Of a stretch of 63,440 bases of DNA, positions 4,128 to 63,440 are shown in pieces; position 1 is the stretch's first letter, and every line of letters starts with the position of its first letter. The DNA is from a virus. The position numbers and the translations under genes are program-made. Below the pieces are notes generated by a model that worked only from the letters and a program-made list of their open reading frames with translations, was not told the DNA's origin and searched no databases. The stretch covers positions 1 to 63,440 of the IMG/VR virus record IMGVR_UViG_3300025133_007312. One strand, written 5' to 3'.

Positions 4128-5263
4128 TCGCAATCCCCTATTTTATTACCTGTGGCGTCTGTTTCAAAAACTTTTGAATTATCAAACTGCTCTCGTTTTT
4201 CTATCTTGGAGCAATCCAAATCCCGTTCCGAAAAAATTCCTTGAGAGTTATCAACTGTTAATTTACAAAGTGTTTCTTCATCAATTTCATTATCCATATC
4301 AATTGAAAAATAATACCCCACATAACTTGAATCTAGGTCTAAACTTCTCATCTCATTAAGATCCCCTTCGGTTTCATTAAGAAATCCCCGAGATGTTGCA
4401 TCTCTTATGATTTCGTCACTATCCTCGTCAACAAGTATTCCATCTTTCACTAGTTCGGTCTTTTTCACAAAATAAAGGGGAGTCATATTTTGCTTCTTTT
4501 CGCCGCTAAAGTCTTCATCTTCTACTTCATAAACTTCAATGTCAAAATTCTGTTCACCGAAGAATACATTATTTTCTGCTATAGCAATAATGATCTCCTC
4601 ATCTCCTGGGATGATATTTATAAAACTTTCATCTTCTTCAAAATAATAATCATATTCAGTCACGTCTGAGTTTGCAGGCACTTTGCCAACAATGGTTTGA
4701 TATTCCACTGGATTTAAATTAAGTTGTGGGATTCTTTCTGTTGTAAATGCACCCGTTAAGTGATTAGAGGAAGATGATACAAGTCCCTGGAGGGTTGATA
4801 TATTCCATGAGGGCGCACTGTTGGTGTTCAAGTCAGAACTTCCAATAGGATAAGTAAGGGAATAAAATTTATCTGCGTCTGCTTGAATGGGCGGAAGAAA
4901 TGCATTTTCTTTAGGTGTGATTTCTGTGTATTCTATGCGTTCCATAGATGAATCTGAGGTGAAGGGGTCGGTAATGATCATCACCTCTTTATCTTCAAAA
5001 GTAAATCTTTCCCTTACCTTCGCGACTTTTGTCTCACATCCCGCATAATTTGCTTGTGCCTCAAGGCGTGGAGTGTCGTTTTTTATGCGATTTTGTATAT
5101 CATTTTGAAGTTCTGTTGTGGAGGCATACTCACTGTCATATAGAACCCCATCATCGAAAAAACTATAGTAATGTGGACTAAATTTACCCTTAGAAATCAA
5201 ATATCTCCCATAGGACGTAATCTCTATGTCAATAACCTGTTCTTTTCCGTTTAAAAACTTCAT
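4124..5263 (-). CDS. Virion protein, 379 aa, acidic C-terminal half
   Basis: The N-terminal 40 residues form a compact motif (ITSYGRYLISKGKFSPHYYS followed by FFDDGVLYDS) that I associate with a conserved structural protein of large T4-like marine phages, without a known function. The C-terminal half is strongly acidic. The ATG at 5263 has a good Shine-Dalgarno (AGAGGG, six bases upstream). The gene is 14 bp downstream of the 3166-aa gene and overlaps the next gene by four bases, so it belongs to the same late operon. T4 gp8 occupies a similar position after gp6 and gp7, but I see no sequence argument for homology. Confidence 0.6.
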   Translation of the reverse strand: MKFLNGKEQVIDIEITSYGRYLISKGKFSPHYYSFFDDGVLYDSEYASTTELQNDIQNRIKNDTPRLEAQANYAGCETKVAKVRERFTFEDKEVMIITDPFTSDSSMERIEYTEITPKENAFLPPIQADADKFYSLTYPIGSSDLNTNSAPSWNISTLQGLVSSSSNHLTGAFTTERIPQLNLNPVEYQTIVGKVPANSDVTEYDYYFEEDESFINIIPGDEEIIIAIAENNVFFGEQNFDIEVYEVEDEDFSGEKKQNMTPLYFVKKTELVKDGILVDEDSDEIIRDATSRGFLNETEGDLNEMRSLDLDSSYVGYYFSIDMDNEIDEETLCKLTVDNSQGIFSERDLDCSKIEKREQFDNSKVFETDATGNKIGDCE

Positions 5264-11200: not shown

Positions 11201-14200
11201 AATCTTAAATTAACATCGAGTTTATCCATTTCTTCCCGGTTAGCAATATCATTTAATAAATCTTCTATCAGTTGATCTGCTGGATCTTCGGGGCGAGTTC
11301 GGACAAAGGGGTTCGAAACTGGTAAACTGCGGGCAGCGCCGTAAGGACTATCAGGCATCGCAGTCGATATAGCTTGAACTTCATAAACAAGGGGACTTTC
11401 CGTATCCGCAGTCGGAAACTTAGACCAATATTTATTCCTCTCAAGCACATGACTCTCAACCATGTTCTTCATTCCATCTAAAAAGTTGGCAGATGCAGGT
11501 GCTAATTGCATTAGCATCACTGAAATTGAAGAATCGATCCATTTATAATATTCAAGAAACTTTTCAAAATCTGGATCGTTGGTCACATTTTGAAAATAAA
11601 GTTGGCGGAGTTTTTCTAAATTTTTGTACCCTTGGCGATAACGGTAAACAGGTTCGCCCATAATATTATTAAAATCTACAATAGTGGCAAACATGTTTAA
11701 CATATCTTTAGAAATCACATTATACATGCTCTTTTCAAAAGAGAAATAATAGTCAATAGGTCGAGATGAACGAGTAAATAACTCATCATCAGTTTCACTA
11801 ACAATAGAAACCATATTGGCGCTATTAATAAGTTCGGGTTTTTTCTGAATAGAGGAGTTTACATATTTTCTTGTAACAACAGAATCTCCAACAGGGAAAC
11901 CATGTCCATATCCGGGGTGTTGCATTTGAGTAATGCTGTCTAAAAACGAATATCCCGAAATATTTGCCGACCCAGAGGAGTAGTCAGGAACCACAAATAC
12001 GCCTGTGGTCCCAGTAACAGTTTCAAAATCCCAATTCATCGCTAATGTTTTAATGTCGGGAATATCATAAGGTGCAAGTCCCAATACAGTTCCTGAAACC
12101 GGGAGAAACTGATTATCTCCAGGTGATTTAACACCAAAATTAAAAGGATCTTTTGCATGAGATTTTAAATGCTCATTTTCAATTTTCTTTGCCCACACCC
12201 TACAACTAGAAATTTGAGCATTACATTTTTCCAATAATGTGCTTGTGAAATTTGTTTTATGAGCACCCACAAACATTCTCTTGTCCGCCTGAAGGAAACT
12301 TATACCGGAGGTATCAGAAATTGATGACGAAACGTCAAAACTATTAACAAGATCATCGAGCACATACTGAAAACCAGTAAACCTTACCGTATAGTTAGTG
12401 CTCGTGCTTCCAGAAACAGAACCAACAAAAGGATCTTCAGGATAAACTCTTAAAGATAGATTCCACTTAGAGTCGCTATATACACTTTTAAAAACACTGC
12501 TAGTTAATTCTGGCATAAAACCTCCCGCAGTGCCAGTTAAAACAAAGAATGCCTCATTCCTTTTTAAATTTTTTCTAACTGAATATATCTGAAAATTTCC
12601 AACATCTGGGGTTAACCAAGGTGGGTTACTTGCATCTGTCGTATGGGCACCAAAAATAGAAGAAGAGAGGAAATCAACTGAAAAAGAACCATCAATATTA
12701 TTAGGAGGGTTTGGTTTAAAGAACGCCTCACACTCAAACGTACTTCCAATATTTGCTGGAAGATCAGTGAAGTTAATAATTTCACTTTGGTCAGATGATG
12801 GTGCTGGTCTTTCTTGATATACTGTTGCCTCAAACCGATCAGGGTCAAAAAAGTCAATTGCTTTTTTTCTAACAACTGAATATCTTTCGTTCTCTCTTAA
12901 TTGATAATCGACATTATTTCCGTAAAGGTTAAGATTGACAATCGACTCATCAACACCAAAACACCTAATTAAATTTCTAAATGCTTTTTCTGTACCCTTT
13001 GATTTATAAATGTCTACAAGGTTATTATAGATATTCAAATAAATTAAGTTTTTGGTATCACTAAGTTTTGCTTCAAAATTTTCAGTTTCATTACGAGAAG
13101 CAAGGTATTCTAAAGCGGTGGCATTAGACAAAATCTCATCATTATCCATCCCAAAGGAGCGCAGGATTTCGGACATAAATGGTTGAGGTTTAGACCCACT
13201 AATCACAGTATCATATGAACGTGCCTTAACGTCTTTTAAAGCGCCCATCTGTAATTGTAGTTGGTCGAATTGACTACCCATTATCTGAGTTAGATTTCTA
13301 AGAGGGGAATTAGTTTTTGATTGATCTTCGTTGGTTATCCAACTTGGTAATGACCAATAAAGCGCAGAATTATTCTCAGCATCATAAAGTTTCCCTTGGT
13401 CAATATATGTGGTGCGTAAATCAGAAACTAGAGGGTTGGCAAGATATATAATCGGATCTTTAAATTCTGATGCTGCGGCGTCTGAAAGAACCATCGCAGA
13501 TCCTGTATTTCTCGACCCAACTGAGTATCCTGTCCAGGTTCCGTTAGAGGAGCGACCGGCATAATCTAAAACTACTGCGTCTTGAGAATCAATGGAGGAG
13601 GTATCTATGATGCCCTCATTAAACTTATAATAAATGCCCAAATCGGCATTATTGGAAAAATCGTATTTTTTTGATGAACTGACCGCTAATTCATAATCTG
13701 TATTGGTGCCGCCATTAATGCTGGTAAACCAGTTTTCTTGAATATCTTTTTCGGTCCTTGCGGTCTTCCAGATGCGGAAATCATCAAGAGATCCAGATAG
13801 TTTGCCAGCACCTTCTCCCGCATAATCAGGATTGGCGGAAAGCGCCCCCAAATACCCCACCATTGAACCTGTAATTTTACCAATTGAATCACCACCACCC
13901 ACAACGCTCCCCACTGTCTGGAATGCACCATTAACATAAAGGCGAGAGGACAAACTAGAACCATCATTTTTAAAAGTGAGTGCATAATGCCTCCATGTGT
14001 CATCATCTATAGGGTCGCCTGAGAGTATCAATTGATATTGGGAACTTACAGATCCCGATGTGAGATTGGCATATATGTTATTATCGGACACTCCCTCTAT
14101 AAACACCAAAAAACTGCCTTTCGATGCAGCATCTGATGAACCATTCCAAATATCTACGATAACTTGCCTATCTGATTGGGATCCTACATCAAAATCTGGT

Positions 14201-14778
14201 TTTTTCAACCAGAACTCGATGCTGAATCCTTTAGCGCCGTCTATGTCGATGTTTGTGTCCTGCCGAGAACCACTAGCATAAACATTTGATCCTGTAAAAT
14301 AATTTGATATTTTTTTAGTTGAATCATATCCAGGTGATTGGTTTGGTCCGCCGAAAAACTTAATATATTCTTGAGTTGTTGTAGGAGAAAAATCACCGGA
14401 ACCCCCACTGGTTATAGTTCCATAATCATATCCAATATTTACATAACCATTACTTCGGGGATATAAATTATCAAAAAAGTATTTATCGAGATAAGTGCCT
14501 GTTAATTCCCAATTAATTTTTTCACGATCTGAACCATCATAAGGATATTCATTAGTAATGTAGTCAATAGAGGTCTTATAATATTCTTCCGCTAACCCAT
14601 AAAAAGAAAAATTAGATGCAGTCGTAAAATCTACATTGGGTATAACCTGTTTTACTTGGGCGACTTTAGACTTAACGTAATCCGCCGATTCAATGGGATC
14701 ACCCACCTCACCCAAACTAGAGTCTGCTATAAGTTTGTTGCCTTGTCCCTTCTCAAATAAATCTTTAATATTTGCCAT
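5278..14778 (-). CDS. Giant baseplate-associated protein with LamG-like domain, 3166 aa
   Basis: This is the largest gene in the window. Residues about 185-345 look like a concanavalin A/LamG fold: SIEFWLKKP, then WRHYALTF, LYVNGAFQTVGSV and a closing LDDFRIWKTART strand. A second, weaker jelly-roll-like stretch occurs near residues 690-890 and ends in SSCRVWAKK. Such domains usually bind glycans, which suits a protein at the host-facing end of the tail. The rest is Ser, Thr, Tyr and Gly rich without clear family signatures. It comes after the gp6-like gene and the 488-aa gene, the region where T4-type phages keep gp7-gp10. Inferred role: baseplate wedge periphery or short fibre, possibly several T4 proteins merged into one chain. 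Confidence 0.75.
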   Translation of the reverse strand: MANIKDLFEKGQGNKLIADSSLGEVGDPIESADYVKSKVAQVKQVIPNVDFTTASNFSFYGLAEEYYKTSIDYITNEYPYDGSDREKINWELTGTYLDKYFFDNLYPRSNGYVNIGYDYGTITSGGSGDFSPTTTQEYIKFFGGPNQSPGYDSTKKISNYFTGSNVYASGSRQDTNIDIDGAKGFSIEFWLKKPDFDVGSQSDRQVIVDIWNGSSDAASKGSFLVFIEGVSDNNIYANLTSGSVSSQYQLILSGDPIDDDTWRHYALTFKNDGSSLSSRLYVNGAFQTVGSVVGGGDSIGKITGSMVGYLGALSANPDYAGEGAGKLSGSLDDFRIWKTARTEKDIQENWFTSINGGTNTDYELAVSSSKKYDFSNNADLGIYYKFNEGIIDTSSIDSQDAVVLDYAGRSSNGTWTGYSVGSRNTGSAMVLSDAAASEFKDPIIYLANPLVSDLRTTYIDQGKLYDAENNSALYWSLPSWITNEDQSKTNSPLRNLTQIMGSQFDQLQLQMGALKDVKARSYDTVISGSKPQPFMSEILRSFGMDNDEILSNATALEYLASRNETENFEAKLSDTKNLIYLNIYNNLVDIYKSKGTEKAFRNLIRCFGVDESIVNLNLYGNNVDYQLRENERYSVVRKKAIDFFDPDRFEATVYQERPAPSSDQSEIINFTDLPANIGSTFECEAFFKPNPPNNIDGSFSVDFLSSSIFGAHTTDASNPPWLTPDVGNFQIYSVRKNLKRNEAFFVLTGTAGGFMPELTSSVFKSVYSDSKWNLSLRVYPEDPFVGSVSGSTSTNYTVRFTGFQYVLDDLVNSFDVSSSISDTSGISFLQADKRMFVGAHKTNFTSTLLEKCNAQISSCRVWAKKIENEHLKSHAKDPFNFGVKSPGDNQFLPVSGTVLGLAPYDIPDIKTLAMNWDFETVTGTTGVFVVPDYSSGSANISGYSFLDSITQMQHPGYGHGFPVGDSVVTRKYVNSSIQKKPELINSANMVSIVSETDDELFTRSSRPIDYYFSFEKSMYNVISKDMLNMFATIVDFNNIMGEPVYRYRQGYKNLEKLRQLYFQNVTNDPDFEKFLEYYKWIDSSISVMLMQLAPASANFLDGMKNMVESHVLERNKYWSKFPTADTESPLVYEVQAISTAMPDSPYGAARSLPVSNPFVRTRPEDPADQLIEDLLNDIANREEMDKLDVNLRLSEIAKIIGPDSISKYTSSIKEAMKARNEEIREGRTRAVSVSSIVSESPIIYEGGSNTTNQQKHIDYTKDELKLATNITLSAPSSDVVLTKFNSPVQKLKGKGKTFFKLQNSTNPLGYSSQKGDTIAPFSLYSSSADTGYIQQVRNNYTPVNGTFPSGVTASINITNYHDDSYHQGGIPIQGPFTQEHVGGRQARHQGIVTTPQTDGDLRGESWNLDITGNAIQLTPRSYSQARATRFREGTAKKPVNIRNIKYNTGSQTIGNYSEDYEILQTSGRTINNRYFIETEGATLTNASSSYVKDLFDYEMPRYDLTGTNKSIFVERFSAPGGPETTAGGLNVFGAEYSVYNTLNYRNLTVRRALDGWYSEYTGRFGIKSGSSVSADGYDTNAAYDKTNRNPRHVVTQESTCSVIYDNWWVQHAIPQSVFQYAWVTASVSKSACNTFGYVTPFTIPSGTTSTTQSAVPFLQSTNLWVGHPDSALSNSVTCSYNGLFTVAGIQFPGDYMEGYANQLTSSTNTISPGEYFASNSGISRDIPYYFLNLNGPYQYPSWKQSRTGETPIARYHKKNNILSVSPAPSVVTLPDGNGPGQVAQYLDRRPSAFKNFVEPPVSFKNKSLESIVGDNEGNRTTIVHPYGNKKQYFSQPIGNSGSITDYIGFVEPNTQEMYDQIIDANNITLVQNKYGEIIYPRDALTGLAKTRTRTDYAETATVTDGSASFSTGSNGIDRGPLLRRSMWRDQADLRNRRISFEGTEYTPAQYPGDTHTLTSSVMPFVYTTLPNSQGYLDGAATSIYGMGSTPLTFCDTVWGDGTYVWWLINPQSLFPPNSDVDDYLSGSEYIISLFPDTGELNSPNWQTIAGYVGISSGSSVTGSWAHQTTFYPTASAYYYHRSKTIGQDQTASLNKLAWKTAQLAGKNPWFDSYEDYSQDISKVAPNFTILPEFRISEHMDYYSEFNFRKNNDKFLTLNGAPITSSALIESSGEARGFNESFFNDYSNTDFQNYFGEFSSDLDLGHISLTCNGVKKLLPYNGFYPSQRSLQLATLFSQSVGPYISGLGWRDGLAITSSFENSGALALQSALQPYYAPGIMYNTIKSGIAVDWAAYTSSVGDASNDTDANTFGINLSSSANYRIPFESILDPLSDIGIPSNSGSAVNTKLSLLYPTYTGLQQYANGVLDTGSRGFQQPREPYVYMNTDARTQGISSAEYNLYRLGINNFLAEIPTFFLEGARLKSIKSQRQDEISLVSGTAYYINLTVEKDKGVIMIDDYLNEPNNGQPYTITQYRTYNGQFFGPPVSGGYNSDEYLFNEDCPLYFDTLPEYGYFMFTENAGDPLYAPYTPPYFYGKSTATIKYVADEEDEKGNFSYKKMFEKSEIDYGNEGLYDNFTKLQKRSNFISWVTSSSGGATGVFECSSSAIGEYFSLRKTSAAVAWDLGAISANSRSVNIGQFFEWQVPQEDKNVFVGLNDNPHASASYPDVNYAIQSSADSKTGGSQIYIWEDGSNVFNPSLPYQAGGWFRILIEDNGILKYQYCPQTSQADTSYPNGNPRVGDNDTVNGAQTLYKYGDPTLWETLYTSTVVVTGTLYPDVTIREESGSITYAQVSTTDRITYPAEEGAMQLSASINTFGILTEKQSRFDDKGNLLEVVDAPDESRNRWIISPKMETPVLDFSNQPRVEQFGRGMWSGYGQLLTSSNGVTFGIEETFKEGYNPGSASLLQKCFDTPQIRKVGEVADVKKISEAIIAIPYSPSAYARSSKYAQTTPVLDRNFFRIKTRTYDFYKKWYEQNKEDNLFNIPTDNDGNAKPSESITKMLSLMDNYVIPPELDFMTYGKGRSKINPFAMYIFEFNHYLNAQDLADIWQGIMPRISTNPEMSDPSIDDNTFSHPTGNDEFFHGKQLPPDTRWMVFKVKKRASYNYFDVTPSNSDDEQFNLAFSLGKKKLPYSYNWPYDFFSLVELAQIETENTFVLPGSEISEDDT

Positions 14779-18543: not shown

Positions 18544-21500
18544 CTACTCCTCCTCATTTCTGGTCGATAGTCCTGCTCGGGTAGAACGATGTGGGTCTGT
18601 TGCAGATTCTGTAACTCCCCATGATCTCGACCCTTGGTTGGGCGTCTCTGATGGTTCTTCCATGGATTCCTCCGCATCGGAAGATGTTCTTCGAGGGTCG
18701 CTAGGATTGGCAGCGGAAGATGTTCTTCGAGGGTCGCTAGGATTGGCAGAAGTATTTTCGCCCGGTTCATGACTTGCGCCGGGAAGTCCCTCCTCGGCAG
18801 CGGTTCCCTCGGATGAAGACGGGCGGGCATTGTCAACCGTTTGTTGTGTTGCGGGTGATGAAGGTCCAACAACCGCACCAGGTGTTGGGGCGATATTTGT
18901 AGCACGAGACGCAGCATAATAAGCATTAAGTACCGACGCATTAGACCCAGGAGGGGGTAATCCCAAATCGGCACTACAGTTTTCATCGGATTCACCTATG
19001 TTTTTTGTATTAGAAGATTTTTTGCCATTTAGCATATCATTAATCCAATCCGATGGGGGCATTGAATTTAACCAATTGGGTTCTGGTTTATAATCTAGTG
19101 CCCAATAAACAAACCCAAAGGGGATAGTAAGGGGGGGACCAAAAAAGAAAGGTGCAAAAATAGTTGCGGGCAATAATGCCAAAGAGACTGCCCATATTTG
19201 AGGTTCTGGGATAAAGTTTTCCTCAATCGGGTCGAAAAGAGAGGCATCCGGTTTTGATGGAAGAACAGCATTCTTGCTCTTACAAGAACCAGGACCCACC
19301 AAGTCAGTGCATGTGGTTCCGGTTGCCCATTCCTCACCAGTCTCATATAAAGCCGTCGCCAAATCAGAGATGCCGCTTGCCGTATCGGAAACTGCCTGTG
19401 ATGATTGGTTTATGAGTTGTTGAGACTGCGCAATAAATTTGTTCACTACATGAATTAAGTCGATAATTCGTTTAGATAAAAGAATATTAATATCAGCGGT
19501 TTCCATAAACCCCTTGAAGATTAGAACCGATGATTTGAGTATCATCATCGCCATTTGCCCCGCAAGACCCTTAATGTCAAACCCGTTTAACATACTTTCC
19601 ATCATCTCTCTATTGGATGGCGCACATTTTGACTTTTCATAATTGCCACTATCCAAAAGAATAAACAATAATTGCCTTAACTCTTCTTTAGTCGCATCAA
19701 AAACAGTATCTACATTTTTAATAGTGGAGAGATAAGTGTTTGAGTAAATATTATTAATCCCTAACATCCTATCAACGGGAAAAAGATACTTAAATAAGAG
19801 AGCGTAATCTTCTGTTTGATTTAATTGTGAAATGAGGGTTCTTAAGTTGCGTTGATAAACTGATTTAAAAAATTTTGAATAAACAGGGGTCGCCTCAACC
19901 AAAAACCCATTATCATCTAATTGAGGAGTAGAGTTCTTTTCATAACTAGATCGTGCATCTCTCATGGAAGTGTGCATATTAAATGGCATCTCCACTCCCG
20001 TAATAGGAATAATATTTACAGTTCTTGTCGCGCCATTAGCAGATTCCTTTATATAATATGATTTTGTATTTTTAATAGTGGAATTAGAGATAAACGAGCG
20101 ATGGTCGTGCAACTGAGAATCTTGATCAATTATCTTTGCTGAATCTTGGGGATCTATTAATTTAATGGGCATAACATAAGAAAGTCTAAATCCAAGATGA
20201 AGTTCCTCAAAATAGTCCCCTAGGATCTGATTACTAAATTCATATTCTCGTACTTGTGGATTTTGTGGTAAGTTGGCACCACATGCATCAGCAAGAGCAC
20301 TTTCAGAATTAATTATATCCCGATGCTCAATTCTGCCGCCAGATGCAATTGCCTGAATAAAATCATCGAACTCATCAATATTAATAATTCCTGTACGAGC
20401 CCATTCAGATCCTGCTTTGGCAGTCGTTACGAGGAGTTTATTATTAATTTTTTGAGTCATTCCTGCGGCAGTTGTACTTGCATTAATAGGATCATTGGGG
20501 TCCGTATTTAATTCTACCGCCCTTATATAAGGTTCCAATACCAATCCACCGTTTCCATAATCACTAGTTGGGGGAACTTCCATTGGGCGGCGAGGGGGTG
20601 GTAAATCGTTCACACGACTAAGAAGATCACTTCTTAACTTTAATCTTTCCTGTTCTGCATTTGATAAATCTCGAAATGCATTTTCCCACTCATTAATCCA
20701 CTTATCATATTGCTGTTCTACTCGCTCATGAATCCTTGAGTCAGCAATAACTTGTGCCCGTTCCCACTTCAAAACGTGTAAAATAGATAAAGGATCTAAG
20801 TCCAGAAGGGACGGTGCTGAATATGAACCTACGTCGATGTGTGCTATTGCATGATAAAAGGTCTTTAAATGAAATAGATCGCGAGTTCCATCTGGATTTA
20901 AAATAGAAGAAGCATTAGAAACGGGATTGGCAAAGAGTGCCATAGAATGTTGAGCGTTATCAAGATCAGTAAATACCGGGACTCGTTGAAAAGTTCTTGC
21001 CGGTCCCCAATAACGCCATGGATCTCTCAAAACTGCTACCCGACTGGCAGGATCATTTTCAAGAGCAGCGCGATCACTAGAACGCATAACAGTGGGGGCG
21101 AAACCAAAGCGGAATTCAACGCCATTAAAATCTTTTAAATACCGTGGTAAAAAGTTGGGAACGAGTGTGGGGCGGATAATTTCAGACAATCCAATATATC
21201 CTTGGGGGTTGCCCCAAACGGCTCGTTCTCCGCTTTCTGGGAGGTAATTCCCAATTCTCAAATAATAAGGATCTTCTCTCCATAATTTAAACCTAGGTTG
21301 GTCAGTATCAAAATAAGAGGCATCTGGGGCACTATAAGACCTTCCATAGTCATCTCCATCGAACTCAATCTCTCTACGTCGCTGTTGCCAAGAGGTCACG
21401 CCTTCCAAAACTTCGTCTCTTACACCTGAAGTGCCTATACTTACTGCACTTAAACTTCCCCGATTTAAAACGCCTTCCATCCGGGTAATCTCTGAATGAT

Positions 21501-24500
21501 CAAGAGTTGGCGACCAAAAACTTCCTGCTGTTGCGTTTGTAAAAACTTCTTGTGTCAGTTCAGAGAAGGTACTAGTAGGATCAAAAATTAACCCGTTAGC
21601 GACTAGTGCGCCATAGAAGTGATGACCTCTACCCAAGTCAATTTCATAATCTACATAAGGTCCATGACTGGGCGATCCAAGATCTCTTTGACCAACTTGA
21701 TCTATACTCGAACTAAAATTATGCCAAAAACCATAATTATTGTTTGTCATCAACCCCGCGCTATTATTACTAAAACGAATTCCAGGGGGAAACTCAATTT
21801 TAGATGAAGATAGAACTTGATCATAGAACCACCCAGGATAGTATGTCTTGCCATCAGATGTAATTGCCCCATTGTCAAACCCCCTATCTACATTAAAAGT
21901 GGTCGGGTGCGCGGTCATCGCCGTAAACTGGATAAGAGTGGACATTCCCCTTTTTTCATCCTCTGAAACCCCATATTGATATGCTGGACTTAAAAACTCC
22001 GTTAAGTTATCCCAGTTGTCCTCCAACGCGGAATAGTCTCTTGGACTCACAGAGGGATCGGGATGCCCACCAGACAAACCTGATGTTAAGAGAATTTCGG
22101 CAGCGCGGGAAGTGTGCTGTGGATCTGCTCCATGTTTATCAATCTTTTTCGATGGGGAAGTATCTTCTGTGCCCGCATAAGGTGTATTATTAAGTCGATA
22201 TTTTTCAGCATTAGTTAGATTAGAGTCCTCGTTTAAAGACCAAATTTTGATGCCGGTAGGTTGAGGGTACGGCATGTTTGGGTTCGGAGACGATTCTAAT
22301 CCAAAATACTTTCTAAAAAGAAATCCACTAGGGGCACGTTCAATATCTTGTGATATTTGAAGAATTTCACCCGGAGATAATGTTCCATCAGTCAAAGATT
22401 TAATTATCTGTGGACTAATAAATTCCAGGTCATTATTGGCGGAACTATAAGATGCATTTAATCGCGGTTCAGTTTCGGATCTTTGGATGGGCACCATTCT
22501 AATCCATTGTTCTAACAAAATTGTATCAATCGAAGTATCCCCTCTTGCACCTACCAATTTAGACATTCGATTAGCGACTGACCAGATTTGTTGTCGTACC
22601 AAAAATTTAATTGCCACATCATAATCAGTTTCCAGTATTCTTTCAGATGTGGAGGGATCTAGTGGAAGATCAACGTTGCGATTATATAAATCTAATACCT
22701 CTTTCTCAAATTCAGTAAAATATCCCTCTTTCTCGATTTCAGACGTAATATATCGACCAATATATAATACTAATAGGTTATCTACATCCTGGGGTTGCTT
22801 GTAGCGGAACCAATAAAAGACTTGCAACGAACGTAAAAATATTTCTGTTATATAAGTTCTCAGTATTAATAAAACAACGCCACCAAGGTTAGATTTTTCA
22901 AAAGGATTATCTTTATTACTACCAAGTCCGGTTGTATTAGGAAAAGACGCTTCCAGGCACTGAATAACAGAATATTCTTGTTTAATTCGATTTTTTACTG
23001 CATCTACATCAAGCAAATGCGCCGGACATTTTTGATTTTCAATACGCATAGGAGATAAATCTAATGCATTTAAATTTTTTAAATCGAACATGGGGTTTGA
23101 ATCTGCACCAATTTGACTTGTGAAACTACAAAAAATATCACGCCATACCTCATTATAGTAATTTAAGTTTCCTGCTGGCGATGTATCAAAAAGTTCTTTT
23201 AAGTTCGCTGTATTGGTGCCCATTCTTTGGCGGGGTTGCAATTCTAAATTTTGGTAAATTTGCGGACCCATATTAAATGAATCGTCTACTAAAGATCTAA
23301 AAAAGTTATCTTGAGGGGTACGATCTTGATATCGAAGGTGGTGAAGTGGATCTAAATTCCGTCCAGAATAACAATCTACTGCCCGTTTATTGATCTTTTC
23401 TTGTGGACCAGAAATGATCGTATTCAATTCTAATTGTTCTGCTCCGGAGGATGTTTCCCTAAATGCAGTGGGAGTGTCAGCAGCCACAATAAATCGAAAC
23501 TTATCCTCCGAATCATATCCTTCGTCGATCCACCCCCACGGAACATCATAGTTCAAACTAAATCCAAGATCATTAATCTTTCCAAATAACCCCCCCAATG
23601 CTTCTTTGAACCCAGCACCAATTTGTGCGTCCGACTGAGATCCCCTTGTATCTTGAGGAGTAAAAAAATCACTATCAAAGGTAGAACCCTTTAACGTCTC
23701 TAAATCAATATTAAGATTATCCAAAAGTTTATTAGGGACATCAAATTTAAATCTCTCGGCAGGAAGATTGTTATTTAAGTTAGTTAAGGGGGAAATGTAA
23801 AGTTTATTAAGTCCAGATTCCCTATGGCAAAAAGTCCGATATGTCTCTTGAAACCCCGGAGCAAAAGTATCATGACCCCTCTCCTTGATCACAACAGGAA
23901 CTGGGGAATATCCGTATTTTTGACTATAATATCCATTAGGGTCACTCCTCCCACCAAGGGATTTTCGATAACCAGGATTAGTATTATCATAAAAACTAGA
24001 ATTTGAATTCACATATTCATATAACATTTCAGATTCGGGAAAAGGTTTTGACATTCCTTGTGCCTGCTGAACGACGTTGTTCAGCTCTTCGGGGGCGGTA
24101 TTATTAGGATCGGGGGTGTCGTTGTGTGCAGCACCCACTGTAAAACCGTAAGATTGGAGAATCTCTGCTGTAGCACCCAACCAATTTACATTAACAAACC
24201 CAGAATCAGATGGAGTAGGCGGATACCTTGCTGGTTCATTAGATGTGAAAGATTTCATTGTTTCCCCATTCTGGTCAACTGCACCGGGGGGTAAAGAACC
24301 AAAAGAGTATTGCCCTTTTCCCACTAAATCTAAAAATTCAGCATTAAACATCCTTACAACTTTACCATTAATTTTCCTAGTAACTGTGCGAGGAATAATC
24401 CTCTCGACAGTTGGTGTTACGGTAACAGTGGGGACATAAGAAACTACATCCCGATTAAACGTGGTGGCGACACTATCATACAAAGTTCCAAGCAACTGAT

Positions 24501-26844
24501 CCATTGTAAAATCAAATTTAGGATGATGTCGATTGATAAGACCCGGTACGGTTTTGCCCGTTTTAGGATCATAGTGGCAATAAATAGGGGGAATTAATCC
24601 ATCTAATATATTATCTTTCTGCAAGAGAGCATTAAGTTCTTCCAACCGCTTTTTATCTCTAGCGTTTGATGAATCAATTTGCTCCTTAATTAAATCTAGG
24701 GGCATATCCTTCTTTGATAATAAGTTTTTGCGAAGTTCTGTGTCATCTGGATCACATAGGCACTCAAATTCTTGAGGTAATCTATCAGTTATCTCTTTAA
24801 CTGTTTGAAGTACCGTGGTATATCCAGAGAGTTTACCGATATCATTAAAGAACCCCAAAACATCTTCATCACTCTCCATCAATCCCGAATCGCGTATAGA
24901 GGGATAGTTGGAAGCAAGATTTTTAATAGTATCAATAGCATCTTGACTTGCACCACAACCTAGCATCATATTTCCTGCTTCGGCAGGAGTTAAAACTGAA
25001 GATGCTGCACTTAAAAATCCACCCATTTCTTCTTTTGCTTGGTTTGCTTGTTGAGTAAGTTCTTCTTGAAGTTTTTCATCACCTACATAGTTTTTATAAT
25101 CTGTTCCACGGACTTTGTTATGCAACTCCAATTCACCAGGCAGCAATAAGGGGTTTTTGGCAGATTGTTGCGTTTGTGCAATTAGTTTTTCTTGTTGTTC
25201 TGCAACTGATGTGCTTTGTCCGCCAGGTAAATTAATCCTCGTGCTGGTGATGCCTGTTTCGATTGCGCCTACCGCTGCTGCTGTAAAGGATTGTGCGCCT
25301 GCTCCCAAAACATTTCCGATACTCATTCCGCCGAAATTTAATCCGTCAAATCTTCCGCGTCCTTCCGCCTCATTTTGCAGAGCGCACTCCTTACAAAAAT
25401 CCAAAAGCATTTTAATAATCTCAATTACCATCTTGAAGAGAGTAGATAAAAGAGCGCGAATTATACCACTCTTAATAGATTCATAAATACCATCTAGGTA
25501 ATCTACAATAGGGAGATCATCCTTTAAGTATATTGTGGGGATATCAAAAATAGTTTTTTTAATATCAGATGACAGTGCTTCCGCCTGGTTTAAAAATAAT
25601 TTTGCGTTTGTTAGAAAGTCAAGACCGCGAAAATTTAAACACTCAAGTGCTGCTTCGATTAAAGAACGAATAGGAACTTTGTTTAGGACCTTTTTGTATA
25701 CGTCATTAACAGAGGGGGTTAAATTTGATAGTTCTCTTAAGTTTCCAATGATGCTATCTCCAACAAACTCAGATGCAGAATCTAAATTTTTCTTTAATTC
25801 ATCTTTAAACTCTTGAGATCCAAATAACCTCTCCTCTGCACTATACTCAGAATAAGTTTTAGAAGTCTTTTCATTTGCTTTTTCTTTTGCTTTTTTCACC
25901 GCTGCCGGTTCAGGGTTACTAAACATCTTTGCAGTGCTAAAATCAAATTTAGGGGGATCATAAATGTAGTTATCTATAAATTCCTTAATTGGTAAATTCT
26001 CTGAATCTTTGAATAGTTTGTCAAGTTCATCGATGCTCGACAATAATCTATTATTGCGAGCATTTGAAAACGACAGCGACTTTCTAAAATTATCAAAATT
26101 TTTATCTAGTGGTTTATGGCATTCATTATCTCTCAAGACCACATAACTTGGACTATAATCAGCACTCATACCAAAAATAAGTTCCATGTCGGAACCCCGT
26201 TGATAGGTATATTCATTATCCAACATTAACTTGGAAAGTGCGGGAATGGTTTGATTTATTTTAGTAGATTGAGATTTAAAACTCAATTTTGGAATACGAC
26301 CAAACAATTTTCTTGTTTCAGCATCATATCCTTCAAGCAAACTTCTTAAGTTGTTAATCTTTTTGTATAAATCTTTAGTATTAAACCTTACCTTAATAGC
26401 GGCAGTTTGAAGTCCTAAATCACCTTCCACTATTCCTGGTAGTCCATCTATCTGTACTGCCGCAATAGATACCAAAATTTTTAAACGAGAATTGGGGCGA
26501 GGTTTAATATCCCACCCCTCGACCATTACATTCCCAAATAATTCTTGACGCTTATCGGATTGACCAGGGTTTTTGTCGTAATAATTTAATATTCTAACAA
26601 ATCCCTTTTCTTTGTTTGCCGCTTTTTCTAATCTCGTGGCAAGATCATCTCGACTTGATCCAGCAGATTTATAATCAGTTACTACAGTAACCACATAACG
26701 ATTTTCTAAATTTAACGTTCTTCCATTAACAGTTTTAGTCTCTGCGGCTAAATAATATGGTTCACTTTTATTATTAAGAGTGGTCCAATCAGTGGTAATG
26801 GTTACGGGGGGTTTGTTTAAATCTATGTTTGTTTTGGTTGCCAT
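18544..26844 (-). CDS. Giant virion protein with hydrophobic segments, 2766 aa
   Basis: A 2766-residue protein that I cannot assign to a family. It sits between the spike/lysin genes and gp25, the baseplate hub-wedge junction of the gene order. Two features are unusual for a baseplate protein. One is the hydrophobic stretches near residues 470-560 (IIRALLSTLFKMVIEIIKML, followed by a Gly/Ala-rich region). The other is a strongly hydrophobic segment in the last 250 residues (LALLPATIFAPFFFGPPLTI, continuing to FVYWAL). The C-terminal tail is low-complexity and has a twice-repeated 12-residue unit (ANPSDPRRTSSA/D). Possible roles are a tape-measure-like or membrane-contacting hub component. Start ATG directly follows the stop of the spike gene. 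Confidence 0.7.
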   Translation of the reverse strand: MATKTNIDLNKPPVTITTDWTTLNNKSEPYYLAAETKTVNGRTLNLENRYVVTVVTDYKSAGSSRDDLATRLEKAANKEKGFVRILNYYDKNPGQSDKRQELFGNVMVEGWDIKPRPNSRLKILVSIAAVQIDGLPGIVEGDLGLQTAAIKVRFNTKDLYKKINNLRSLLEGYDAETRKLFGRIPKLSFKSQSTKINQTIPALSKLMLDNEYTYQRGSDMELIFGMSADYSPSYVVLRDNECHKPLDKNFDNFRKSLSFSNARNNRLLSSIDELDKLFKDSENLPIKEFIDNYIYDPPKFDFSTAKMFSNPEPAAVKKAKEKANEKTSKTYSEYSAEERLFGSQEFKDELKKNLDSASEFVGDSIIGNLRELSNLTPSVNDVYKKVLNKVPIRSLIEAALECLNFRGLDFLTNAKLFLNQAEALSSDIKKTIFDIPTIYLKDDLPIVDYLDGIYESIKSGIIRALLSTLFKMVIEIIKMLLDFCKECALQNEAEGRGRFDGLNFGGMSIGNVLGAGAQSFTAAAVGAIETGITSTRINLPGGQSTSVAEQQEKLIAQTQQSAKNPLLLPGELELHNKVRGTDYKNYVGDEKLQEELTQQANQAKEEMGGFLSAASSVLTPAEAGNMMLGCGASQDAIDTIKNLASNYPSIRDSGLMESDEDVLGFFNDIGKLSGYTTVLQTVKEITDRLPQEFECLCDPDDTELRKNLLSKKDMPLDLIKEQIDSSNARDKKRLEELNALLQKDNILDGLIPPIYCHYDPKTGKTVPGLINRHHPKFDFTMDQLLGTLYDSVATTFNRDVVSYVPTVTVTPTVERIIPRTVTRKINGKVVRMFNAEFLDLVGKGQYSFGSLPPGAVDQNGETMKSFTSNEPARYPPTPSDSGFVNVNWLGATAEILQSYGFTVGAAHNDTPDPNNTAPEELNNVVQQAQGMSKPFPESEMLYEYVNSNSSFYDNTNPGYRKSLGGRSDPNGYYSQKYGYSPVPVVIKERGHDTFAPGFQETYRTFCHRESGLNKLYISPLTNLNNNLPAERFKFDVPNKLLDNLNIDLETLKGSTFDSDFFTPQDTRGSQSDAQIGAGFKEALGGLFGKINDLGFSLNYDVPWGWIDEGYDSEDKFRFIVAADTPTAFRETSSGAEQLELNTIISGPQEKINKRAVDCYSGRNLDPLHHLRYQDRTPQDNFFRSLVDDSFNMGPQIYQNLELQPRQRMGTNTANLKELFDTSPAGNLNYYNEVWRDIFCSFTSQIGADSNPMFDLKNLNALDLSPMRIENQKCPAHLLDVDAVKNRIKQEYSVIQCLEASFPNTTGLGSNKDNPFEKSNLGGVVLLILRTYITEIFLRSLQVFYWFRYKQPQDVDNLLVLYIGRYITSEIEKEGYFTEFEKEVLDLYNRNVDLPLDPSTSERILETDYDVAIKFLVRQQIWSVANRMSKLVGARGDTSIDTILLEQWIRMVPIQRSETEPRLNASYSSANNDLEFISPQIIKSLTDGTLSPGEILQISQDIERAPSGFLFRKYFGLESSPNPNMPYPQPTGIKIWSLNEDSNLTNAEKYRLNNTPYAGTEDTSPSKKIDKHGADPQHTSRAAEILLTSGLSGGHPDPSVSPRDYSALEDNWDNLTEFLSPAYQYGVSEDEKRGMSTLIQFTAMTAHPTTFNVDRGFDNGAITSDGKTYYPGWFYDQVLSSSKIEFPPGIRFSNNSAGLMTNNNYGFWHNFSSSIDQVGQRDLGSPSHGPYVDYEIDLGRGHHFYGALVANGLIFDPTSTFSELTQEVFTNATAGSFWSPTLDHSEITRMEGVLNRGSLSAVSIGTSGVRDEVLEGVTSWQQRRREIEFDGDDYGRSYSAPDASYFDTDQPRFKLWREDPYYLRIGNYLPESGERAVWGNPQGYIGLSEIIRPTLVPNFLPRYLKDFNGVEFRFGFAPTVMRSSDRAALENDPASRVAVLRDPWRYWGPARTFQRVPVFTDLDNAQHSMALFANPVSNASSILNPDGTRDLFHLKTFYHAIAHIDVGSYSAPSLLDLDPLSILHVLKWERAQVIADSRIHERVEQQYDKWINEWENAFRDLSNAEQERLKLRSDLLSRVNDLPPPRRPMEVPPTSDYGNGGLVLEPYIRAVELNTDPNDPINASTTAAGMTQKINNKLLVTTAKAGSEWARTGIINIDEFDDFIQAIASGGRIEHRDIINSESALADACGANLPQNPQVREYEFSNQILGDYFEELHLGFRLSYVMPIKLIDPQDSAKIIDQDSQLHDHRSFISNSTIKNTKSYYIKESANGATRTVNIIPITGVEMPFNMHTSMRDARSSYEKNSTPQLDDNGFLVEATPVYSKFFKSVYQRNLRTLISQLNQTEDYALLFKYLFPVDRMLGINNIYSNTYLSTIKNVDTVFDATKEELRQLLFILLDSGNYEKSKCAPSNREMMESMLNGFDIKGLAGQMAMMILKSSVLIFKGFMETADINILLSKRIIDLIHVVNKFIAQSQQLINQSSQAVSDTASGISDLATALYETGEEWATGTTCTDLVGPGSCKSKNAVLPSKPDASLFDPIEENFIPEPQIWAVSLALLPATIFAPFFFGPPLTIPFGFVYWALDYKPEPNWLNSMPPSDWINDMLNGKKSSNTKNIGESDENCSADLGLPPPGSNASVLNAYYAASRATNIAPTPGAVVGPSSPATQQTVDNARPSSSEGTAAEEGLPGASHEPGENTSANPSDPRRTSSAANPSDPRRTSSDAEESMEEPSETPNQGSRSWGVTESATDPHRSTRAGLSTRNEEE
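18678..18749 (-). repeat. Two perfect 36-bp tandem copies
   Basis: Positions 18678-18713 and 18714-18749 are identical, in frame within the 2766-aa gene, and encode two 12-residue units in its disordered tail. The identity at every third position suggests a recent slippage duplication. Confidence 0.9.
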
Positions 26845-44977: not shown

Positions 44978-45226
44978 TGGAGGTGGCGGGAATCGAACCC
45001 GCGTCCTCAATGTTTTAATAGTTTGTGATACACAAGGTTAAAAGATTGGTATAATAAAACACGGTTTTGGGTAACAAGGAAACCGTAAACCCCGCTTTGA
45101 TTGCTTACGCCGCCAAAGTTAGTGCAACATTATCGTTAGCAGTTATTTGTTTTAAGCCTTTTAGTGTTTGCTTATACACCCTTGCACAAATCTACCTCGA
45201 CACCCAGTCGAATCCAGTTCACCCCC
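44978..45226 (-). ncRNA. ssrA: One-piece tmRNA
   Basis: On the minus strand, the 5-prime end is GGGGGTGAACTGGATTCGAC and the 3-prime end is GCGGGTTCGATTCCCGC then CACCTCCA. The ends pair as a 7-bp acceptor stem (GGGGGUG with CACCUCC) and the T arm is perfect. A tag frame follows a TAACT element corresponding to the conserved UAGUC region. Gene length is 249 nt, shorter than E. coli (363 nt); CCA is not encoded. It rescues ribosomes stalled on cut or broken mRNAs. No smpB gene is seen, so host SmpB is assumed. Confidence 0.92.
45105..45140 (-). other. tmRNA tag-coding frame, resume codon GCT
   Basis: The reading frame runs from GCT at 45138-45140 to TAA at 45105-45107 and encodes the 11-residue tag ANDNVALTLAA. 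The E. coli tag is ANDENYALAA. The Ala-Ala end is the ClpXP degron, so tagged proteins should be destroyed by host proteases. The insertion-like LT before LAA is the main departure. Confidence 0.85.
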
Positions 45227-45809: not shown

Positions 45810-46199
45810 TTAAGTGATGGCGTCGTCAATCTTTTTTTCATAATATTGCTCAGTTTTATATTTCTTAACCAACTCTATGAGAGTTTTTTCTTGAATGCCT
45901 AAGAATCGTGCTGCTTCGCGTTTTGACTGGGTGGCAGAAAGTGCGTATTTTAAGACGGCATCGGAAATGATATATTTAAGTGATTGCCACACGGGAAAAC
46001 CATAAAATTTTCCCTTTAATAAATCGCGAGTGGCGATTTCTAATTTTAAAGAAACTACTTCCTCCAAAGAAAGATTAGATAAATAAACCTCTAATTCTTC
46101 GTTAGATTTCCCTTGTTCTCTTAATTTTTTGGATAATGAATAACTTTTATTTTTACCGCTATTCGTCTTCTTGGTCATTTGATATACCGAGTATACCAT
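45810..46199 (-). CDS. Fis-like helix-turn-helix protein, 129 aa
   Basis: The C-terminal 40 residues (VLKYALSATQSKREAARFLG, then IQEKTLIELVKKY) match the helix-turn-helix of the Fis family: the AAxxLGIxxxTL core is typical. The N-terminal 80 residues are charged. It probably binds DNA as a regulator or architectural protein. Two starts are possible: ATG 46199 or ATG 46178; neither has a strong ribosome site. It overlaps the 91-aa gene upstream by 41 or 20 bases. Confidence 0.65.
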   Translation of the reverse strand: MVYSVYQMTKKTNSGKNKSYSLSKKLREQGKSNEELEVYLSNLSLEEVVSLKLEIATRDLLKGKFYGFPVWQSLKYIISDAVLKYALSATQSKREAARFLGIQEKTLIELVKKYKTEQYYEKKIDDAIT

Positions 46200-53516: not shown

Positions 53517-54266
53517 CTATAATTGAGAAATAATATATTTCTCTAAAAGTGCCACTGATTGATCTAAACTCTGATTAGCGGTATTAATTATGAGATCGCA
53601 GTCTTTTGGTTCCTCAAAGGGATCAGAAACTCCCGTAAAATTTTGAATTTCCCCACTTAATGCCTTAGCATACAACCCCTTTACATCGCGGTCGATACAT
53701 GTCTCTAAACTACACTTTATAAAAACTGTTTTAGCGCCACATTTATTTTCCAATTCTTGGCGCACTTCTTGATACGGATTAATGGCAGACATAATAGTGA
53801 TTACACCATTTCGACTTAAAACCTTTCCCACAAATCCTAAACGACGAACATTAGTATTTCTATCTTCCTTGGAAAATCCCAAGTCTTTACATAATCCTTC
53901 GCGATATTCATCCCCATCAATGATTTCAATTTTATATCCCTTTTGTCGTAATTTTTCTCCAACTGTAAACGCCAGCGTCGATTTTCCTGCGCCTGACAGT
54001 CCTGTCATTTGTATAAACATACCCTTTGTTTTACCCCACTTAATAAAATTCCACAAGCGTTCATGAAGAAAAAACACAAACACTTGAATAATATTATAAC
54101 ATAAAGCTATTAAACTTGTAGATTTAATATTGCCTGTAGTCGCGAAGACAACCGCAACTAGAATAACAACGGCAACCAAGCGCCATGTTACTGCTTTCCA
54201 AAAACTTCTTTTTTTTGAGTCAATCATATTTTTCTCAACGCCAATAAACTCACACTGTTTTTTCAT
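53517..54266 (-). CDS. cysC: Membrane-anchored APS kinase (DUF2061-CysC fusion), 249 aa
   Basis: Residues 20-75 hold a DUF2061 module with two hydrophobic helices (KAVTWRLVAVVILVAVVFAT and SLIALCYNIIQVFVFFLHER). Residues 80-249 are APS kinase: P-loop GLSGAGKST (89-97), DGDEYREGLCKDLGFSKEDR and the NPYQEVRQ segment. It phosphorylates adenylylsulfate to PAPS, the sulfate donor. The fusion puts the kinase at the inner membrane, near sugar-lipid synthesis. Sulfate adenylyltransferase is not visible, so the host must supply APS. Confidence 0.88.
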   Translation of the reverse strand: MKKQCEFIGVEKNMIDSKKRSFWKAVTWRLVAVVILVAVVFATTGNIKSTSLIALCYNIIQVFVFFLHERLWNFIKWGKTKGMFIQMTGLSGAGKSTLAFTVGEKLRQKGYKIEIIDGDEYREGLCKDLGFSKEDRNTNVRRLGFVGKVLSRNGVITIMSAINPYQEVRQELENKCGAKTVFIKCSLETCIDRDVKGLYAKALSGEIQNFTGVSDPFEEPKDCDLIINTANQSLDQSVALLEKYIISQL

Positions 54267-59499: not shown

Positions 59500-60111
59500 T
59501 TATAGTGAGACGCCGAGTCCAAGACCCAAAACGTGTGCCGTAGATGACAAATCGCTACCTGTCGAATCAAGCATATAAAATGCTGTCACACTCATTGTAT
59601 CGTTCACACCCTTGGTGATACCAATGGACGCACGGTTGCCCGTAATACCATCGGCGTTTGCGCGAAGTTCGTCCGAAACGCCTAAAGTAATACCTCTTAT
59701 TTGAGTGCTCATATCAAGTGCAGTGCGACCACTCAAGGTGTCAAATCCACTCAACTCAATTCGAGACGCGCTATCGATATTTAAATCACCGCTCAATAGT
59801 CGAAAAACACCCCCAACATAAGGTCGGTGCTCACCAGCACTTGTATTCCGATACCCCACAGAGACGCCCATAAGATCATTAACCTTAAAACCAAGGTTTA
59901 AATCAGTATGTTGACGTGCCAACGTTGGACCAGAAATGTCACTAAAACGAAGTTCTTCTTCTACGTTTAAGGTTACATTATCTGCAACACCACCTGTAAC
60001 ATTCAAAGTAGTCCAAACGGATGTCTCCGCTGCCATCGCAGTATCCGCCCAAAGCGCGATACCAATTGCGGCGAATCCAAACGCCAGTATTTTTTTCATT
60101 TTGTTAGTCAT
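59500..60111 (-). CDS. Outer-membrane beta-barrel protein, 203 aa
   Basis: Residues 1-28 form a signal peptide (ILAFGFAAIGIALWADTAMA then AAET). The mature part alternates polar and hydrophobic residues in strands ending in aromatic or Leu residues, as in small porin-like barrels (DUF2490-type shape). The AAGGAG ribosome site supports ATG 60111. GC content in sampled stretches is about 47 percent, above the neighbouring genes, which suggests a more recent capture from a host. It has its own terminator. It could alter permeability or block a receptor during infection. Confidence 0.7.
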   Translation of the reverse strand: MTNKMKKILAFGFAAIGIALWADTAMAAETSVWTTLNVTGGVADNVTLNVEEELRFSDISGPTLARQHTDLNLGFKVNDLMGVSVGYRNTSAGEHRPYVGGVFRLLSGDLNIDSASRIELSGFDTLSGRTALDMSTQIRGITLGVSDELRANADGITGNRASIGITKGVNDTMSVTAFYMLDSTGSDLSSTAHVLGLGLGVSL

Positions 60112-60318: not shown

Positions 60319-60502
60319 AAAATTTCCCACCTTTCCCATGATCTGCATTTTTGCCAAAATAGAGCACTTCAAATTCTGAAGTTTCTGCCTTATAAGCACA
60401 ATGAAGATGAAGCAAATGTCGCATTAATAACTCCAATGGTCTTTTTTCAATCGAAATGATCGTGTTCGGTATTCCATTTTCCTTATAAATAAATTTATAC
60501 AT
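60269..60502 (-). CDS. Small hypothetical protein overlapping tRNA-Leu, 77 aa
   Basis: ATG 60502 is overlapped by the TAA of the Cys-rich gene (TAATG) and preceded by AAGGA, so translation is plausible. The protein contains a helical, His-containing middle (LLMRHLLHLHCAYKAE). Its last 16 codons lie in the tRNA-Leu sequence, which suggests that the original stop was lost when the tRNA arrived, or that the overlap is tolerated. No family recognised. Confidence 0.45.
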   Translation of the reverse strand: MYKFIYKENGIPNTIISIEKRPLELLMRHLLHLHCAYKAETSEFEVLYFGKNADHGKGGKFCSHGETVDTEDLKSFA

Positions 60503-60717
60503 TATTTTTTTTCCTTACAAAACTCACTCCTACACGGTGAATTACATCGTGTATAGCATTTTCCAAACTCATGGGAGTGATTAATGGTCCTTTGACAGAT
60601 CACTGAGCAATCTGATGTACATTTAAAAAAAGTTTCATCACAATAAAGATGAGAACTAGAAGTGCTGCATGGGTTAGGATTTACCAAAAAAAATACAACA
60701 AACGCAAGACCTCTCAC
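60502..60717 (-). CDS. Small cysteine-rich protein with hydrophobic N-terminus, 71 aa
   Basis: The N-terminal 12 residues (RGLAFVVFFLV) can serve as a signal or membrane segment, and the remaining 55 residues carry nine cysteines at 17, 26, 33, 37, 41, 54, 58, 62 and 67. Spacing of three or four residues between several of them would fit disulfides in the periplasm or metal binding. GTG start at 60717 has GGAG eight bases upstream. Function unknown. Confidence 0.55.
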   Translation of the reverse strand: MRGLAFVVFFLVNPNPCSTSSSHLYCDETFFKCTSDCSVICQRTINHSHEFGKCYTRCNSPCRSEFCKEKK

Positions 60718-60913: not shown

Positions 60914-62158
60914 TTAAAATTGTTCTTCTTCAGTAGAATTTTTTAATGCAAGTGTGGAAGACTCTCCGTCAGAAATAACTTGAGAAATTTTGTCAAAATA
61001 TCCAGTTCCCACTTCACGTTGATGCTTGACTGCTGTAAATCCGTGAATCACTTCATCAAATTCATTTTGCTGTAATTCGGAATAAGCAGACATGCCTCGC
61101 TCAGAGTATTCCTTAGCGAGAGTAAACATGCTATGGTTAAGGGCATGAAAACCAGCAAGAGTCACAAACTGAAACTTGTATCCCATTGACTCCAACTCCT
61201 TTTGAAATTTAGCAATTGTTTCCTTATCTAAATGTTTTTCCCAATTAAATGAGGGAGAGCAATTATATGCTAATAATTTATTGGGATACTTTTCATGAAT
61301 GGCATCTGCAAATTTTTGTGCTTCCTCTAGCGATGGAGTAGAAGTTTCTAACCAGAGAAGATCGGCGAAAGGCGCGTAAGATAGACCTCTCGAAATGCCC
61401 ATCTCAATTCCGCCTGTAATTTTATAAAAACCCTCTGGGGTCCTTTCGCCTGTAATAAATGGGTGATCCCTCTCGTCTATATCGGAAGTTATGAGTTTTG
61501 CTGAATTAGCATCTGTTCTGGCAATTATGATAGTGGGTGTGTCGCATACGTCGGCAGCAAGTCTTGCCGCAGTCAATGTTTTAATAAATTGTTTGGTGGG
61601 AACAAGGACTTTGCCGCCCATGTGCCCACACTTCTTTTCTGCCGCCAATTGGTCTTCAAAATGAACACCCGCAGCACCCGCTTCGATCATAGACTTCATG
61701 AGTTCATATGCGTTCAGCGGACCACCAAATCCAGCTTCAGCATCGGCAATAATCGGTGCGAAATAATCATGTTCAGGTTGACCTACAATACCGCCCTCAA
61801 CACACTCAAGTTGATCTGCTCGCTGGAATGCTTTATTTATTTTTCTTACAACAGCAGGGACGCTATTGACGGGATATAAACTTTGATCGGGGTACATATC
61901 CCCTGCTAGATTTGCGTCTGCTGCGACTTGCCATCCACTTAAATAAATCGCTTTGAGTCCCGCCTTTACTTGTTGAACTGCTTGATTGCCAGTTAAGGCA
62001 CCTAGGCACCGAACGGCATCTTCCTCATGTAACATTTCCCATAATTTCTTTGCCCCATCAGTTGCAAGCGTATATTCAATCTTTTTACTTCCACGAAGAT
62101 TCAATACTTCTTCTTTAATATATGTTCGTTCAATTCCATCCCATCTATATGGTGACAT
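60914..62158 (-). CDS. aceA: Isocitrate lyase, 414 aa
   Basis: Cleaves isocitrate into glyoxylate and succinate, the first step of the glyoxylate bypass. Complete domain: SGWQVAAD (74-81), DQSLYP, the catalytic KKCGH (175-179, with Cys177 as proton donor), [16 protein letters not shown] (299-306) and the C-terminal EEEQF. These match E. coli AceA over nearly the full length (E. coli 434 aa; the first 16 residues are missing). No key residue is changed, so the enzyme should be active. It lies 17 bp after the malate synthase gene and in the same direction, as in bacterial aceBA operons, within phage-type surroundings. Confidence 0.97.
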
Positions 62159-62175
62159 ATTTCTTACTCCTTCCT

Positions 62176-63440
62176 TTATTCAATTATTTCGTAACACTCT
62201 AGTGTTAAAAAATCTTTTAAATTATCTGACATGCACATATCTTTTATCAAGTTAAATATAGTTTCAAAATTTTTATTTTTTTCATATTTTCTGGATTCTT
62301 CTCTCAACACTTGATTAAAATATGTTTTATTCATAACAACGCGATTACTTAAAACAATCTCATGTTTTATCCACTGCCAAATTTGGGCACGACTTATTTC
62401 TGCCGTTGCTGCATCTTCCATTAAATAATTAATTGGTACGCACCCATTTCCCTTAATCCACGAACTGATATAGAGAAATATGATATTAATATTTTCACGC
62501 AACATTTGCTCGGTGCAATCACCAATCGGGGGAATAATCAAATCACTTATAGTAATATCTCGGTTTAATGATGACTTGGTGCCTATTTGGTTAAGGGCGG
62601 GCATGTGTTCATCAAAAATGGATTTAGCAATATGTACCAAAAAAGGATGAGCGACCCATGTTCCATCATGTCCAGATTGTACCTCCCTGAGTTTACCTGC
62701 TTTTACTTTTCTCATCGCAATATCATTTGCTTCGGGGTCGTTTCCAATAGGTATCTGTGCTGCCATGCCCCCTATCGCATGAACCCCGCGCCGATGGCAA
62801 GTCTTTATAAGTAATTGAGAGTAGGATTTCATAAAATGAGAACCCATATCCACCGTGGAACGATCCGGTAACACATAATTTTTATCATGTTGGAAGGTTT
62901 TTATAAAACTAAAGATATAATCCCATCGACCACAATTTAGACCGGCAGAATGCTCTCGCAACTCGTATAAAATTTCATCCATTTGAAGAACCGCAGGAAA
63001 TGTTTCAATTAAAACAGTCGCCTTTATAGTTCCGGGGGGAATTTCTACATATTTTTCTGCAAAATTAAAAATTTCCGCCCACAACCTTGCTTCCCTGGAG
63101 TGTTCTAGTTTAGGGAGATAAAAATAAGGTCTTGTTCCATTTTTCAAAAGTTCTTTATAGTTATGAAAGAAGTATAGACCAAAATCAAAAAGACATGCGC
63201 GAATACGATCACCACCAACCAGATAATTCTTTTCTTCTAGATGAAGACCTCTTGGTCGGACAAATAGAACGGCAGTATCACTTTCCAATGTATACTTTTT
63301 CTTTTGGTTTGTACATGTTATGGTTTTTCTTACCGCGTCATAAAGATTAATTTGTCCATTAATGCAATTATCCCACGTAGGGGAATTAGAATCTTCAAAA
63401 TCGCACATATAAACATTTGCACCTGAATTAAGGGCGTTTA
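62176..63440 (-). CDS. aceB: Malate synthase A, partial at the right edge, at least 420 aa
   Basis: Condenses glyoxylate with acetyl-CoA to malate, the second step of the bypass. The frame remains open to base 63440: before the Met at 63408 the chain reads [10 protein letters not shown], which aligns with the E. coli segment just before MADFEDS, so the N-terminus is outside the window. Conserved pieces: [19 protein letters not shown] (substrate Arg), [30 protein letters not shown] and [18 protein letters not shown] (catalytic Asp). About four fifths of the E. coli enzyme is present. Its stop is 17 bp before aceA. Confidence 0.96.

Follow-up and report, generated by a model that had tools for sequence, protein, structure and literature searches.

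The window, by which we mean the whole stretch of DNA analysed (63,440 bases), is an entire IMG/VR record without end repeats, and it closes with two adjacent and co-oriented genes, aceB followed by aceA, in the layout of an operon (Table 1). The reading frame of aceA is free of internal stops, and its product matches the Pfam isocitrate lyase family (ICL, PF00463, E = 3.8e-108) as well as solved isocitrate lyases over residues 5-414 (phmmer, E = 8e-191). The aceB product matches the MS_TIM-barrel (PF01274, E = 1.3e-106) and MS_C (PF20659, E = 4.4e-36) domains and, among solved structures, finds class A malate synthase at E = 1e-145 but class G only at about 1e-4, which by sequence comparison makes it isoform A, not G. 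Because the record stops inside the gene, about 79 N-terminal residues are missing as judged by alignment to relatives (498 aa in the homologue at locus L003), with the alignment beginning at residue 101 of the Bacillus anthracis and 104 of the Escherichia coli malate synthase. The same segment is intact in the relatives L003, L004, L018, L020 and L022-L024.

Table 1. Features at the aceBA end of the window and the basis of each assignment
Feature	Position	Strand	Basis
aceA, isocitrate lyase, 414 aa, complete	60914..62158	minus	PF00463, PDB isocitrate lyases, catalytic residues
aceB, malate synthase A, 420 aa shown, 5' end open	62176..63438	minus	PF01274, PF20659, PDB malate synthase A
aceB-aceA junction, 17 nt, Shine-Dalgarno AAGGAGT	62159..62175	minus	sequence
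Small conserved ORF, 71 aa, downstream of aceA	60502..60717	minus	homologue in G001
DUF2490 protein, downstream neighbour of aceA	59500..60111	minus	PF10677, E = 2.4e-10

The active sites of both enzymes are conserved. AceA contains the motifs KKCGH, SGW and NCSPSFNW, and its residues D91, D139, C177 and R214, which correspond to D108, D153, C191 and R228 of the Mycobacterium tuberculosis enzyme, have invariant equivalents among 12 viral isocitrate lyases; Asp108, Cys191 and Arg228 are core residues of the M. tuberculosis protein (PMC7609661). For AceB, the window and eight viral relatives all have equivalents of E. coli malate synthase A residues R166, E250, D278 and D447. We take R166, E250 and D278 to have roles in the active site. 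D447 is the active-site base (PMC3112382). A strong Shine-Dalgarno sequence lies immediately 5' of the aceA ATG, and this arrangement suggests that the two genes may be translated from a single mRNA. The first-pass annotation, made from the letters alone, had described a complete isocitrate lyase with its catalytic motifs, a malate synthase intact as far as the window extends and an operon of the two, and all three descriptions hold.

Both genes are under purifying selection, as dN/dS is low. For aceA it is 0.035-0.04 in L003-L004 and L003-L005, the closest pairs and the only ones given because dS is saturated when the window is compared with L003 or L004; for aceB it is about 0.12-0.18. At the level of coding capacity, a phage glyoxylate bypass is supported by these sequences. 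Neither AceA nor AceB has a family in PHROGs, and that viral annotation library therefore misses the pair. The 71-aa ORF downstream of aceA has no Pfam match, and its homologue in the related record G001 (53% identity over 66 aa) also lies downstream of aceA; the DUF2490 gene is likewise kept downstream of aceA at L003, L004, L005 and L164.

Phage context of the pair

The window carries a tmRNA, two tRNAs, PhoH, an HNH endonuclease and glycosyltransferases, but it contains no match to gp23, terminase or sheath and no capsid gene, so that the T4-like genome proposed in the first-pass annotation could not be read from the window itself. A probable assignment came instead from G001, a 111-kb record that holds locus L003 and matches 39 window genes, mostly in the same order and at 25-87% identity. 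G001 encodes a T4-type portal, gp20 (PF07230, E = 1.1e-78), and a T4-type terminase, and gp23 is present in the more distant aceBA phages G021, G022, G025, G027 and G044. The first-pass annotation had pointed to the far side of aceB as the place to look for phage genes, and in G001 this side carries small phage-like ORFs across about 13 kb, together with an HNH-endonuclease-family gene (phrog_1314). Seen through this collinear relative, aceBA is flanked by phage genes on both sides.

These comparisons bear on whether the pair could be a bacterial housekeeping operon that was misassembled onto a phage contig or carried as a transduced fragment. The window ends within aceB and on its own would fit such an origin, as would the few IMG/VR aceB contigs that group with bacteria (L132/L133, L139/L140, L154/L155, L158 and L160), but the portal, the terminase and the phage-like sequence beyond aceB in the collinear G001 make a host chimera very unlikely. 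Furthermore, aceBA and its DUF2490 neighbour are shared by L003, L004 and L164, AceB clusters exclusively with phage copies, and AceA is 82-85% identical to its nearest phage homologues versus 72% to the best bacterial sequence found. We consequently rejected host DNA through the relatives G001 (L003), L004, L164 and G016, and regard it as having only a few chances in a hundred. In G016, an 81-kb relative with the same backbone, aceBA lies between a homologue of the window's 45810-46199 and the PhoH region, in the interval that corresponds to the position of the tmRNA in the window; because its position differs on a shared backbone, the pair has moved or been exchanged within this phage group. 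We interpret aceB-aceA, with a probability of roughly 85%, as a phage auxiliary metabolic operon inside a large T4-related phage genome.

Several other features of these records were observed. The tmRNA of the window (44978-45226, minus strand; Rfam RF00023, 105 bits) encodes the tag ANDNVALTLAA, and ARAGORN found no tmRNA in G001 or G016. An APS kinase (PF01583, 5e-52) and a DUF2061 membrane segment make up a single fusion protein, encoded at 53517-54266 on the minus strand; this phage sulfate-activation gene has a homologue in G001 with 73% identity. The minus strand also encodes two giant proteins, one of 3166 aa at 5278-14778 with a concanavalin-like lectin domain and one of 2766 aa at 18544-26844. 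Locus L105 of G001 (3464-4669, minus strand) gives a weak match to a tubulin/FtsZ GTPase (3.5e-6) that falls under the curated cut-off.

Spread and ancestry among viral contigs

An alignment-based scan found aceB encoded in 50 IMG/VR contigs, which are related to one another and hence do not count as independent events, and 46 of them carry aceA in tandem. The lyase gene lies directly downstream of aceB in 40 contigs (gap of at most 107 nt) and just upstream in six, while two of the four contigs without a tandem aceA are cut by contig ends. Seven records combine aceBA with terminase and/or gp23 (G001, G016, G021, G022, G025, G027 and G044), including sequences of 201,585 bp (G021), 267,118 bp (G025), 178,344 bp (G027) and 118,248 bp (G044); G027, at locus L127, has gp23 and terminase as well as aceBA. 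In 24 contigs a ribonucleotide reductase (RNR) gene lies no more than 6 kb upstream of aceB in the same orientation; this adjacency partly reflects shared ancestry and was not seen in the window's own subclade. Frequent neighbours also include ThyX, a glutamine-synthetase-like gene, an amidase and DnaB. The glutamine-synthetase-like gene is short, occurs near aceBA in 12 contigs (for example, L020 8719-9729) and has a Pfam match that spans only part of the catalytic domain.

Trees were built for both proteins, as the first-pass annotation had proposed. In an AceB tree of 75 sequences, 38 viral sequences fell on one side of a branch with support of 98/94. A larger AceB tree, built quickly with a short search, covered 72 bacterial sequences from several phyla and five other viral sequences, against which the 34 core phage sequences grouped exclusively with one another (SH-aLRT 99). 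Among the bacterial AceBs found, the closest was 57% identical. In the AceA tree, ten viral copies of the window lineage grouped together (91/81), with a Myxococcales metagenome-assembled genome as their nearest neighbour. The AceBs of L132/L133, L139/L140, L154/L155, L158 and L160 were placed among bacterial sequences and represent either separate acquisitions or misfiled records.

Overall, this pattern points to aceBA as an old module maintained by phages. We lean towards a history in which large T4-related phages took up a virus-specific central-carbon module on one or very few occasions; the module would then have diversified with them across many lineages and moved within the backbone, in many cases coming to lie beside RNR, ThyX and the glutamine-synthetase-like gene as part of a nucleotide-supply block. 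A clade made up only of phage sequences, along with the close linkage to nucleotide genes, suggests selection acting on phages rather than the accidental capture of host DNA.

Possible roles during infection

If isocitrate lyase and malate synthase are both made in the infected cell, the former would convert isocitrate to succinate and glyoxylate, and the latter would combine glyoxylate with acetyl-CoA to give malate. Operating as a full bypass during infection, the two enzymes would keep C4 acids available for aspartate, pyrimidines and amino acids. The most plausible outcome would be a supply of C4 acids that feeds the synthesis of nucleotides and amino acids in the infected cell. We favour a full bypass because both enzymes are kept in tandem and placed after RNR in many relatives, and we favour a biosynthetic, nucleotide-supplying role over a purely energetic one because the pair closely follows RNR in many relatives and is often near ThyX and the glutamine-synthetase-like gene. 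The first-pass annotation had proposed that the phage conserves carbon for nucleotides in cells burning acetate or fatty acids, for example from the breakdown of host lipids; the proximity to RNR fits the nucleotide part of this proposal, and the lipid part is speculative for the window's lineage.

Some phages have aceA alone, so a full bypass is not the only use that phages make of the lyase. The complete phage C48C1 lacks aceB, as do L006-L017 as far as their contigs extend. In the AceA tree, L006-L017 lie next to Burkholderiales and C48C1 occupies a long branch of its own; these positions look separate, and we rejected the idea that the lyase-only phages stem from the same acquisition as the window aceA. 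Such phages, together with the argument of Hurwitz et al. 2013 for energy production (PMC4053976), lend some weight to the possibility that the main gain is energetic or redox-related, or lies in glyoxylate and succinate supplied by the lyase, rather than in net conservation of C4 acids. The tandem aceA in 46 of 50 viral aceB contigs is more in keeping with a full bypass than with a role for the lyase by itself, and we judge a main gain of this kind possible but rather unlikely.

Within the lyase-only group, a fatty-acid desaturase gene (PF00487) closely follows aceA in the two members scanned (L007 11816-12529 and L014 11218-11916, both on the plus strand), and a similar-looking ORF occupies the same position in L010 and L012; this is a lipid-related lead for the lyase-only group only. 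L007 also encodes a tRNA with the anticodon CUA (5857-5932, minus strand; ARAGORN), a possible amber suppressor hinting at stop-codon recoding.

A role in lysogeny or pseudolysogeny, as proposed for aceBA by Nishimura et al. 2017 (PMC5332604), would mean that the operon helps the carrier cell to survive instead of serving biosynthesis in the lytic cycle. The many glycosyltransferases and sugar-nucleotide enzymes of the window are the type of co-occurrence behind that proposal (PMC5332604), but no integrase or lysogeny gene was detected among the proteins scanned, the backbone is probably T4-related, and many relatives have aceBA in a replication and nucleotide block (UvsX, DnaB, RNR and ThyX). 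We consider this role improbable and retain C4-acid supply as the preferred reading. Phages with the two-enzyme bypass could shift the split of acetate carbon in infected cells between CO2 and biomass, which makes this specific form of carbon rewiring by viruses open to testing.

Comparison with known systems

The first-pass annotation knew of no defined phage in which both genes are complete and linked, and here it was mistaken. A complete virus genome of 179 kb that encodes homologues of T4-like structural genes was reported by Nishimura et al. 2017 (mSphere) to contain an aceBA operon, the first such operon in any complete viral genome according to those authors (PMC5332604). The presence of aceBA in a phage has thus been known since 2017, and the window is not the first case. 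In the open-access literature we found no earlier report of the breadth of aceBA, the exclusive AceB clade or the linkage to nucleotide genes. Isocitrate lyase has also been described in a survey of viruses under an Antarctic ice shelf, in viruses assigned to Pelagibacter and Woesiales (PMC10721903).

Compared by description, TARA_ERS478052_N000008 (PMC5332604) resembles the window in being a large virus with an aceBA operon and surface-polysaccharide genes; it is complete, at 179 kb, and has T4-like structural genes. The similarly sized G027, with its gp23, terminase and aceBA, may be close to it. The KdsA family was considered as a further feature shared with the Nishimura phage and rejected, as PF00793 was found in none of 13 records, namely the window and 12 related records (a set that does not include G027). 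The aceAB genes reported from the Pacific Ocean Virome by Hurwitz et al. 2013 likewise comprise isocitrate lyase and malate synthase A from the viral fraction but, unlike those of the window, are gene families without a defined phage genome carrying the linked pair (PMC4053976).

Phage C48C1 (OQ984149, Kyanoviridae, 156 kb, circular), on which we found no papers in the open-access literature, is a T4-type phage that, like the window, encodes an intact isocitrate lyase; the enzyme is 57% identical and is annotated only as a hypothetical protein (L019 14995-16236, equivalent to OQ984149.1 44175-45416). It differs in having a genome without malate synthase and an AceA of a separate, long-branched lineage. 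Finally, bacterial aceBA of the E. coli type shares its gene order, enzyme families and conserved active sites with the window, whereas the phage AceB falls in its own clade and the best identities to bacterial sequences reach 57% for AceB and 72% for AceA.
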